Origin: Acidobacteriota bacterium
GTDB lineage: Bacteria > Acidobacteriota > Terriglobia > Terriglobales > Acidobacteriaceae
NCBI GenBank assembly: GCA_021846275.1
Contig: JAJZBZ010000004.1
Span: 62,001 to 126,000 of the forward strand
Length of the DNA: 64,000 bases
Direction of reading: 5' to 3'
Shown here: piece by piece, positions 48,727 to 50,807 of the stretch
Numbering within the stretch: the stretch's first letter is position 1
Layout: each line of letters opens with the position of its first letter
Made by a program: the position numbers and the translations under genes
Notes under the pieces: generated by a model
What the model saw: only the letters and a program-made list of their open reading frames with translations
Databases searched by the model: none
What the model was told of the DNA's origin: nothing

Positions 48727-49767
48727 ATGGAGCGGCGCATTCAATCCGGCGGGAACGCGGCAAACTCGAATGGGGCTGGCGAGCAGAAGGCGAGCGATCT
48801 GCTGGCCAGGCGCGCGCCGCGCGAGCAGGGCTACATTCTGCTGGCGGTGCTGTTTATGGCGTTTCTGCTGGCGATTTCGCTGTCGATTGCCGCGCCGAAG
48901 ATGGCCGCCTCGATTGAGCAGGATCACGAGCGCGAGCTGATCCAGAGGGGATTGCAGTACCAGCGCGCGGTGCAGCTTTATTACCGGAAGTTTGGCGCGT
49001 TTCCGCCGACGGTCGATGCGCTGGTGAAGACGAACACGATTCGTTTTTTGCGCAAGCGATACAAGGATCCGATCACGGGCAAGGATGACTGGGTTCCGAT
49101 TCATTATGGCGAGGCAAAGACGCCGATTCTGGGTTTCTTTGGGCAGCCGCTTGCCGGAGCCACGCCGGGCGGAGCGACGCCGGGGGGAGTGGGTCCGAGC
49201 GGTGGGAATGCGAATATCGGCACACCGGCGGCGGGCGCGGGCAACTCCTCCTCGTCGGGATTTTCGCTGGGTGGCGGGAGTTTTGGCTCTGGGATGGGCG
49301 GGGCAACGGCGGGCGGCGCAGCGGGCAGCTCGACGAGTCCCACGGGCGGCAGCTCGTTTGGCAGCAATACACCGTCGGACTTTGGATCGAGCGGCAGCTC
49401 GCAGACCTTTGGCGGCGCGGGGATCATCGGATTCAAGATTCCCAGCAACAAGCTGGCGCTGCTGGAGTTCAAGAAGCAGAAGCACTTCAATGAGTGGGAG
49501 TTCTACTACGATCCGAGCGAGGAGCAGTTTCTCTCCGGCAATGCGGCGCTGGGACAGCCGATTCCCGTGAGTGGCAGCAACGACGCGACGACCTTCAGCG
49601 GGAGCACGTTTGGCTCGGCACCGGGCGCGAACGGGTCGAGTGGATTCGGCGGGTCTTCGAGCGGCTTCGGATCGAGTTCCGGTGGCTTCGGCTCCAGCTC
49701 TTCGGGTGGCTTTGGATCAAGTTCGCCGGGAGGGTCCAGTTCGCCGACGCCTGCTCAGCCGCAGTAG
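48727..49767 (+). CDS. Acidobacterial-type pseudopilin with Gly/Ser-rich tail
   Basis: 346 residues. A prepilin-like segment REQG|YILLAVLFMAFLLAISLSIAA (about 32-55) is followed by IEQDHERELIQRGLQYQRAVQLYYRKFGAFPPTVDAL and TIRFLRKRYKDP, a motif pair I recognise from a widespread acidobacterial type II secretion pseudopilin family. Mature position 5 is not Glu (it is Ala), unlike the pilin at 5.8 kb. The middle (about 140-240) and the C-terminal end (about 290-346) are Gly/Ser/Phe-rich low complexity, with repeats such as GFGSSS. Between them lies GFKIPSNKLALLEFKKQKHFNEWEFYYDP, also seen in this family. Last gene of the operon; no secretin follows. Confidence 0.8.
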   Translation: MERRIQSGGNAANSNGAGEQKASDLLARRAPREQGYILLAVLFMAFLLAISLSIAAPKMAASIEQDHERELIQRGLQYQRAVQLYYRKFGAFPPTVDALVKTNTIRFLRKRYKDPITGKDDWVPIHYGEAKTPILGFFGQPLAGATPGGATPGGVGPSGGNANIGTPAAGAGNSSSSGFSLGGGSFGSGMGGATAGGAAGSSTSPTGGSSFGSNTPSDFGSSGSSQTFGGAGIIGFKIPSNKLALLEFKKQKHFNEWEFYYDPSEEQFLSGNAALGQPIPVSGSNDATTFSGSTFGSAPGANGSSGFGGSSSGFGSSSGGFGSSSSGGFGSSSPGGSSSPTPAQPQ

Positions 49768-49824
49768 GACGAAACTGCTGGATTTCCGAGCCGGTTTTCC
49801 GTGACGGCAGATGCAAAACAGAGA

Positions 49825-49844
49825 CGCCGCCCGAGTGGGCGGCG
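49825..49844. terminator. Candidate terminator hairpin after the secretion operon
   Basis: An 8-bp perfect stem, CGCCGCCC (49825-49832) with GGGCGGCG (49837-49844), and a GAGT loop, located 58 nt after the pseudopilin stop. No U-run follows, so it may be a Rho-dependent pause or an mRNA 3'-end stabiliser instead of an intrinsic terminator. Confidence 0.4.
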
Positions 49845-49914
49845 CTGCTTCTGGAGATCGCAAAATTCTGAATGGAAATGCGACGGAAGCCGACGGCTGA
49901 CGCGCTGCAGATTC

Positions 49915-50026
49915 GAGCAGAATCACAGTTACTGTGCCCAGTGGAGTCAATCTGGATGCTGCCGTTCCTCGAAGAACGGCAGCCCAGGCGACTTTGAGTC
50001 CGTGTACGCCGACTGTGATTCTGCTT
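49915..50026. repeat. Nested inverted-repeat element of about 110 bp
   Basis: The outer arms are a perfect 14-bp inverted repeat, AGCAGAATCACAGT (49916-49929) and ACTGTGATTCTGCT (50012-50025). Inside, GGAGTCAA (49943-49950) pairs 7 of 8 with TTGAGTCC (49994-50001), CTGG (49952-49955) pairs with CCAG (49984-49987), and a 10-bp stem GCTGCCGTTC/GAACGGCAGC (49958-49967/49974-49983) closes a 6-nt loop. The right arm ends at the HesB-family stop codon. CACAGT-T-ACTGTG (49924-49936) is a competing local palindrome. It could be a bidirectional terminator, a MITE/REP-like element or a structured RNA. Confidence 0.75.
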
Positions 50027-50394
50027 TAGACGCTGAATGAGGAGCCGCAGCCGCAGGTGCTCTTGACGTTCGGGTTTTCGAACTTGAAGCCGGCGGCCTC
50101 GAGCGTCTCGACGTAATCGACGACGCAGCTATTCAGGTACATGAGCGAGGTGGAGTCGATGAAGACCTTCAGACCGTCGTAGGTGAAGACCTTGTCCATC
50201 ATTCCGGCCTGATTCTCAAAAGCCATCGAGTACTGGAAGCCGGAGCAGCCGCCACCGACGACGCCAACGCGCAGCCCTGCGGGAATCGGATCCTGCGTGG
50301 CCATGATCTCGCGCACTTTGGCGATAGCCGAGGGGGTCAGGTTGAGCGGCAGGGATTTTGTCTCCGGCGTGGGGGATTCGATTGCGGTGGCCAT
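50026..50394 (-). CDS. HesB/IscA-family iron-sulfur cluster insertion protein (ErpA-like)
   Basis: 122 residues. A-type carrier that delivers Fe-S clusters to apoproteins. The three ligand cysteines are present: Cys50 in GGGCSGFQY and Cys114/Cys116 in STCGCGSSF at the C-terminus. LTPSAIAKVREIM and DSTSLMYLNSCVVDYVE are also family-typical. AAGGAGAAA precedes ATG 50394. It has its own promoter; no isc or suf genes are adjacent. ErpA versus IscA/SufA cannot be separated by sequence inspection alone. Confidence 0.93.
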   Translation of the reverse strand: MATAIESPTPETKSLPLNLTPSAIAKVREIMATQDPIPAGLRVGVVGGGCSGFQYSMAFENQAGMMDKVFTYDGLKVFIDSTSLMYLNSCVVDYVETLEAAGFKFENPNVKSTCGCGSSFSV

Positions 50395-50433
50395 GATGTT
50401 TTCTCCTTCGGACGGACGGAATTGCCCTCTTTC

Positions 50434-50463
50434 AATGTATCGCCGATTTCAGCGCGAAATCAA
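50434..50463 (-). promoter_or_regulatory. Promoter of the HesB-family gene
   Basis: Minus strand: -35 TTGATT (complement of 50458-50463), 18-nt spacer, -10 TACATT (complement of 50434-50439). The start site would lie near 50427, about 33 nt upstream of ATG 50394. No IscR-like palindrome was identified. Confidence 0.6.
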
Positions 50464-50807
50464 GAGCGTTTTGGTCCGAGTTCACTGTATGGGATGTCGG
50501 AACGGGCGGCGAGGTTGCAGTTTTCCTGCCGGGCATCCCGGCAAGGGAAGTCGGAATCCATTCCGGCAACATCTGTGACCCTGGGCACAGCGAAAGCGGA
50601 TGCCAACGCGCAAGAATCGCGCTATAGTGGTTAGCCGGGCGGCCCCGGCTGCCTGCGCCGCGCTGGAATTTTCAGGCTCCAGTTTCGACCTCCAGGCAAC
50701 TCCGCTTTGCTGCTTGATCGGTTGCTGCACTTCGTTGCCGCACCGGTGAGCGCATCCGGGACCGACCGGCCCCATTTGGGGATTTTCTCGGGAATGTGGA
50801 GGTGAGT
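50464..50807 (+). other. Intergenic region and possible long leader of the small membrane protein gene
   Basis: About 340 nt without a gene. TATAGT at 50623-50628 is a good -10 match on the plus strand, though only ATGCCA stands at the -35 position. A transcript from there would have a leader of about 170 nt containing CCCC-ATTT-GGGG (50770-50781) followed by ATTTTCT, a short terminator-like hairpin just before the ribosome-binding site. No known riboswitch fold was recognised. Confidence 0.35.

Follow-up and report, generated by a model that had tools for sequence, protein, structure and literature searches.

Downstream of a HesB-family gene in an Acidobacteriota genome lies a long inverted repeat, one arm of which runs into the stop codon of that gene, and the question raised by this locus is what such a repeat is and why it ends exactly there. 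The original prediction, made on the window (the whole stretch of 64,000 nucleotides that was analysed), offered a bidirectional terminator, a palindromic mobile element or a structured RNA. We conclude with considerable confidence that the repeat is a non-autonomous, TA-targeting hairpin transposon of the MITE class, in which the junction between the target TA and the terminal purine of the element (TA|R) rebuilds stop codons.

The hairpin at the HesB-family stop codon

The outer inverted repeat, formed by AGCAGAATCACAGT (49916-49929) and ACTGTGATTCTGCT (50012-50025) on the plus strand, was perfect over its 14 bp, and the inner stem, formed by GCTGCCGTTC (49958-49967) and GAACGGCAGC (49974-49983) on the same strand, was perfect over 10 bp with a partly paired middle, as originally described. 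The proposed folding into one long hairpin was borne out as well: the RNA fold of positions 49905-50036 reached -65.1 kcal/mol compared to a mean of -38.6 (sd 3.7) for shuffled sequences (z -7.1), and none of 200 shuffles was as good. The ends of the element (49915-50026, 112 bp, no strand assigned) were set where the similarity between copies stops in an alignment, A1, of 14 copies from the same genome and two from G013, a sister species of the same genus. The element has the formula R-AGCA...TGCT-Y with a TA outside each end. At the window locus, the right target TA occupies 50027-50028, within the HesB-family stop codon, and the left target dinucleotide (49913-49914) now reads TC where TA is expected, which points to decay; in A1, which has 16 rows, a count by eye gave TA at the left target columns of 5 rows and at the right ones of 10. 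Two subterminal motifs were read from the sequences, TACTGTG at 49930-49936 (plus strand), varied forms of which recur on one arm of sibling elements, and TACACC, in the form TACGCC in the window copy, at 50005-50010 (plus strand) on the opposite arm. The local palindrome CACAGT-T-ACTGTG, reported for the left arm, is present in the window; it is not common to the sibling elements.

The gene to the right (50026-50394, minus strand) is of the HesB/IscA type and matches Fe-S_biosyn (PF01521); the gene to the left was called a pseudopilin in the original prediction only. The right arm had been described as ending at the HesB-family stop, and it does touch this codon, more precisely by contributing one base to it: the stop codon covers 50026-50028 (TAA on the minus strand) and consists of the target TA plus the element's first minus-strand base, position 50026 being the last base of the element. 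The statement that the repeat has no coding explanation overlooked that its end is part of the stop codon of a neighbouring gene. The only open reading frames that extend into the element or over it are short mechanical ones (77 and 79 aa), and there is no transposase gene in it. The bidirectional terminator was not upheld at this locus, where neither arm runs into a T tract. A terminator-like hairpin with a T-rich tail lies apart from the element, at 49824-49845 on the minus strand, past it as viewed from the HesB-family gene. This hairpin is weak evidence alone, since one was found against 0.7 expected in shuffled sequences; by eye, several relatives also carry a hairpin in the corresponding HesB spacer.

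Copies in the genome and the genus

When positions 49900-50040 were compared at the DNA level with the whole genome (3.34 Mb, 13 contigs, 98.6% complete), 21 matches were obtained, namely 14 near-full copies (the window copy and L011-L023), one fragment (L024) and six reverse-strand echoes, which are the same palindromes read again. The 14 copies show 72-100% identity to the query and are spread over five contigs, and a covariance model run on the same genome returned the copies of the DNA search together with some weak or shortened ones. One shortened copy (L027, G000:C8:368093-368127) has only 35 bp, little more than the two ends with a few bases at the tip. In G013, two matches were found by the DNA search and two weaker ones by the covariance model, while the DNA search found the element sequence neither in the other 13 genomes of the genus nor in 26 further relatives. 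The exact inner-stem pattern, searched in a collection of about 85,000 genomes that may not contain the genome under study, occurred in a single stretch, in the metagenome-assembled genome Acidobacteriaceae bacterium isolate clean1927, at the place of a G013 copy. A plasmid collection held no match to the element or to an element of G175, a copy-rich genome described below. A chance palindrome had been reserved for the case of no copies elsewhere; copies are abundant, and this reading, already refuted by them and by the failure of all 200 shuffles to fold as well, has practically no probability left.

The site was then compared with its counterparts in 14 other genomes of the genus. The HesB-family gene was found in 12 of them, and all 12 have their stop at the same place and no element. 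On the plus strand this stop reads TTA in 11 relatives and CTA in one, and the site is YTAR in eight of the 12, TTAC in three and CTAT in one. The homology of these empty sites covers one flank only, a two-sided match being absent there, and the other candidate for an empty site (L128, compared with L024) gave only a partial match. In the simplest history of the window copy, the terminator was there first and the element arrived between it and the stop codon. Among the original proposals, the palindromic mobile element is strongly supported by the dispersal of the copies, their constant ends, the TA on either side and the relatives that lack the element.

Sibling elements in the bacterial family

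An end-sequence search allowing up to two mismatches revealed many ends of the form TARAGCAGTTTCACAG in the genome G012. The fetched loci contain a sister family of elements, nearly all with 112 bp between the TAs; by eye, GANTC sites are present in the arms of the family of the window copy and absent from the G012 arms. Further sibling elements were found in G005, G010 and G014. Of 150 genomes sampled from the bacterial family, 40 matched the exact pattern TARAGCA N98-108 TGCTYTA, a figure that is not a prevalence, because the reversed control pattern matched more genomes (84, counted from the matches listed, with 1-5 each). A pairing filter was passed by 13 of 29 loci, taken as one locus per matching genome. 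The evidence for sibling elements rests on the excess in single genomes, not on the number of genomes. At least four matches were found in twelve genomes, with control matches in brackets: G175 128 (3), G156 89 (2), G118 38 (1), G164 25 (0), G132 17 (0), G144 13 (0), G128 9 (0), G095 6 (0), G076 5 (0), G087 5 (0), G165 4 (1) and G070, where 4 against 3 is no clear excess. The exact pattern is strict and recovers just one of the 14 copies of the genome under study.

The element sequences vary between genomes, and some genomes hold two kinds. Read from the sequences, the siblings share TA-RAGCA ends and a central stem closed by a short loop, and they have a motif like TACTGTG inside one end and one like GGTGTA inside the opposite end. 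Two different-looking kinds, of the TAGAGCATTTTCCCTGT and TAGAGCAATTCTCCTAA types, coexist in each of G175 and G156 among the matches listed, and by eye, again among the matches listed, these two genomes appear to have two kinds in common.

Some arrangements of neighbouring or alternative elements were also observed. In G175, two elements stand head to tail at about 1387-1616 of L203 and at about 1496-1727 of L201, the second element beginning in the TA region that ends the first. In two genera, one and the same gene has elements of unlike sequence at its stop (L119 of G012 and L215 of G118), with a flank identical at 75.7% over 395 bases; a weaker flank match (64.6% over 486) accompanies another same-gene stop with different elements, L012/L003 of the genome under study and L216 of G118. 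Such pairs may reflect more than one insertion at the same site, or old copies whose sequence was replaced by that of newer ones. Unlike elements also lie near the start of one gene in two genera, at 39 bp (L141, G076) and at 19 bp (L022, the genome under study).

Stop codons at the element junctions

The target site was analysed in a set of 102 distinct elements from 18 genomes, each chosen for an intact TA on either side; their loci were those listed first and not a random draw. The elements range in length from 109 to 115 bp, with 112 bp in 60 of them. A pyrimidine precedes the left TA in 86 of the 102 elements and a purine follows the right TA in 81, and this YTAR preference holds at ends away from stop codons (66 of 76 and 66 of 78; p 3e-11 and 3e-10).

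In 48 of the 102 elements, the stop codon of a called gene lies exactly at the junction, in two of them on both sides; excluding the two richest genomes, G175 and G156, the count is 25 of 53. Gene calling relied on a home-made codon-usage score, by which some of the genes are weak (L013 and L019). Offset 0 accounts for 50 of the 125 element ends that face the 3' end of a gene; each other offset from -60 to 60 is seen three times at most. If genes were cut at random, two thirds of the stops would be expected within the junction or past it, but negative offsets of any size were found only twice, which speaks against genes truncated by chance. Of the 204 element ends, 171 have G and 33 have A as terminal base, a purine being required by the search. 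Because the element starts with a purine on both strands, TA|R always reads TAA or TAG.

Of the 14 copies of the genome under study, a set chosen without the TA requirement, seven lie at a stop codon. Pfam matched the genes at five of their nine stop-codon ends (L012 on both sides, the left side of L019, L020 and the HesB-family gene), while the genes at three ends gave no match (L018, the right side of L019 and L021), in a scan that left out L013. The two aligned G013 copies both end at a stop codon as well, one of which (L026) is TGA, outside the TA|R rule.

How far this coincidence reflects the available sites was estimated from the non-coding YTAR sites of the same loci, outside the elements, of which 53 out of 375 are stop codons (Fisher p 1.4e-11 against 48 of 102). 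In the window itself, stop codons account for 7 of the 31 non-coding YTAR sites. The element may be mobile and its stop excess nevertheless a matter of survivorship, with insertion at random YTAR sites and subsequent loss of the copies in genes and promoters, a reading to which we give about an even chance. The scarcity of YTAR outside coding sequence, where the window sites already include so many stops, is consistent with it, as is the gene context of the 93 elements with two called neighbours (31 convergent, 55 tandem and 7 divergent): divergent intergenic regions are depleted, and survivorship is possible because elements between divergent gene pairs are so rare. However, the share at stops exceeds that of the available sites. 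The 47% is probably too high, because an intact TA, required for the set, is favoured by selection at stop codons, and this ascertainment explains part of the excess. The seven of 14 copies chosen without the requirement differ from the rate of 53 in 375 (p 0.0015) and from the window rate (p 0.02). The stop-codon excess may stem from survivorship or partly from targeting.

Conservation of the hairpin

The check for covariance that had been proposed gave a positive answer. An alignment, A2, of 19 representatives from 17 genomes was examined at 28 proposed pairs; 88.9% of the cells were paired compared to 71.0% after shuffling, both sides had changed in 20 of the 28 pairs, a number reached in 3 of 500 shuffles, and the covariation score was 0.500 compared to 0.183 for shuffled and 0.077-0.160 for slid versions. 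These controls flatter the result, because the structure was derived from the same, partly related sequences and the selection of elements required paired outer ends. The covarying pairs comprise 12 of 18 in the outer helix and 8 of 10 in the inner helix (helix 2, equivalent to the inner stem of the window copy). A single enzyme that reads two identical ends could account for the covariation of the outer helix; that of the inner helix is hard to explain in this way. All nine elements tested folded better than their shuffled versions (z -5.1 to -9.1), and the consensus of the family of the window copy forms a stable hairpin on both strands. The stems of the element are kept by compensatory changes while the sequence diverges.

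Of the originally proposed structured RNA, the structure stands, and the sequence is compatible with a hairpin acting as RNA or as folded DNA. Maintenance of the full-length hairpin by compensatory mutation suggests that it matters for mobility, in the form of folded DNA, or for an RNA. A rival explanation would make the repeat a regulatory RNA of gene 3' ends, recruited as a bidirectional terminator or as a stabilising end of the mRNA, with its position at stops due to selection and not to the chemistry of insertion. The hairpin on both strands, the covarying stems and the small number of elements between divergent genes (7 of 93, against 31 convergent and 55 tandem) would all fit such a role, which we nevertheless regard as improbable: no T tract adjoins the stem, the separate terminator-like hairpin remains in place in the window, and seven of the 14 copies of the genome are away from stop codons, one of them (L017) by eye just upstream of a start codon. 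Rfam likewise gave no match over the cut-off in positions 49700-50500 of the window, where one promoter model matched below threshold, and none over the cut-off in ten sibling loci.

Search for a partner transposase

The likeliest mover of the element is a cut-and-paste transposase supplied in trans. Transposases were searched by chosen families and at the loci covered. For IS630-type enzymes (PF13358), 12 of the 23 fetched loci were inspected, and none of the 12 had family-like ends. They include the seven loci of the genome under study with all eight of its matches; an IS630-type partner may be absent from this genome or lost from it. Family-like ends were equally missing from 14 of 14 loci with DUF4096 (PF13340), a domain that gave no match in G175 and G156, which hold most copies, or in G132. 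Inverted pairs flanking candidate transposase loci were rejected, as they have two to three mismatches and look like chance.

Longer relatives of the element were also looked for. Twelve unpaired ends near copies were inspected over the 150 bases after each, and most are further, partial or tandem copies; L173 and L199 are among the few without a clear assignment. An unpaired left end with an unpaired right end after it was met at one locus alone, L027, where the two belong to the 35-bp copy. A Bradyrhizobium plasmid (NZ_CP083722.1) carries, at about 127322-127426 (L245/L249), an element of 101 bp, or 105 bp with the TAs, whose ends TA-GAGCATTTTC...GAAAATGCTC-TA are like those of some elements studied here; it is a TAGAGC-ended alphaproteobacterial repeat, likened to CIR repeats by description. 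A scan of 200 of the 201 kb of this plasmid for longer TARAGC-ended elements returned this one 105-bp element and no transposon.

Size, high copy number, species-specific sequence on a common skeleton and occasional tandem dimers recall REPIN-type repeats, which are moved by RAYT, a tyrosine transposase resembling those of IS200/IS605. This origin is very improbable here, as Y1_Tnp (PF01797, RAYT), searched in the genome under study and 14 control genomes, had no match in the former although five of the controls matched, and as TA on both sides and the YTAR target speak for a target duplication, which REP/RAYT systems are not known to produce.

Discussion

The hairpin transposon reading put forward at the outset can be arranged into a mechanism. 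A putative transposase of the DDE type, acting in trans, would recognise the inverted ends of the element and insert it at the TA within YTAR, probably duplicating the TA. TA and the outer Y or R do flank both element ends, the TA being set by the selection of the elements and the empty site being homologous on one flank. Where the target TA belongs to a TAA or TAG stop codon, the stop would be restored as TA|R on the gene side, whichever the orientation of the element, and where two convergent genes overlapped in one YTAR before insertion, both stops would be restored. The protein would remain intact after insertion into its stop codon, so the element would accumulate at gene ends, and a stop codon at the junction would in turn preserve the end of the element.

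Several known repeats share parts of this scheme. The ERIC/IRU/RU-1 repeats of enterobacteria (127 bp; PMC2229807, PMC2759123) are, like the element described here, short imperfect stem-loop palindromes that are non-autonomous and have TA termini, and they duplicate TA; they differ in that their terminal inverted repeat is reported to have 7 bp, while 16-17 outer positions are paired in the present element, and a systematic placement at stop codons is absent from the description in the passages cited. A fusion reported for RU removes the normal stop of the gene, whereas the present element keeps it. RUP of Streptococcus pneumoniae (107 bp) and the Correia/NEMIS repeats are described as small MITEs with terminal inverted repeats, target duplication and TA termini (PMC2229807). 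Compared by description only, RUP differs in having a proposed partner with matching ends, IS630-Spn1, where none was found at the loci covered here. The CIR repeats, of about 110 bp and with TA termini, are portrayed in the same source as two arms joined by a linker, unlike the hairpin studied here (PMC2229807).

Stop codons supplied by repeats are also on record. The pneumococcal BOX element encodes the stop codon of 36 coding sequences without clear truncation (PMC3049150), but it is modular (A-B-C), and rebuilding of stops by TA|R in either orientation does not figure in the cited part of that description; in Coxiella, QMITE2 is found at the 3' end of enhC (PMC5896051). Similar target rules are reported for IS711/IS6501 of Brucella, which appears to duplicate the TA of YTAR (PMC2266754), the same rule as here but in an autonomous insertion sequence, and for the 100-nt MITEPsy1 of Pseudomonas syringae, which inserts after CTAG or YTAA (PMC3189936) and, unlike the present element, duplicates 4 nt.

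MITEs with a TA target (ERIC, RUP, Correia) and repeats that encode stops (BOX, QMITE2) are known. New, as far as the literature was searched, are a class of hairpins with a conserved skeleton in the Acidobacteriaceae and a TA|R junction by which the stop is restored whichever way the element lies; the titles and abstract openings retrieved from the open-access literature describe no such repeats in Acidobacteria. More tentatively, the elements might form a distinct class of mobile hairpins in the Acidobacteriaceae, perhaps also in alphaproteobacteria, whose mover reads the folded hairpin and whose purine-ended TA|R junction is a specialisation for stop codons on both strands.

The hairpin transposon accounts for a class of repeats with many members in some genomes of a bacterial family that has received little study. 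The genomes with most exact-pattern matches (128 and 89) offer a direct route to the missing transposase. Annotation of these genomes calls for caution, since intergenic hairpins of this class resemble terminators or regulatory RNAs. For a mobile element in a compact genome, the rule would be simple, to land in a stop codon and rebuild it, and an insertion that completes the stop in this way would let the element spread with little harm.
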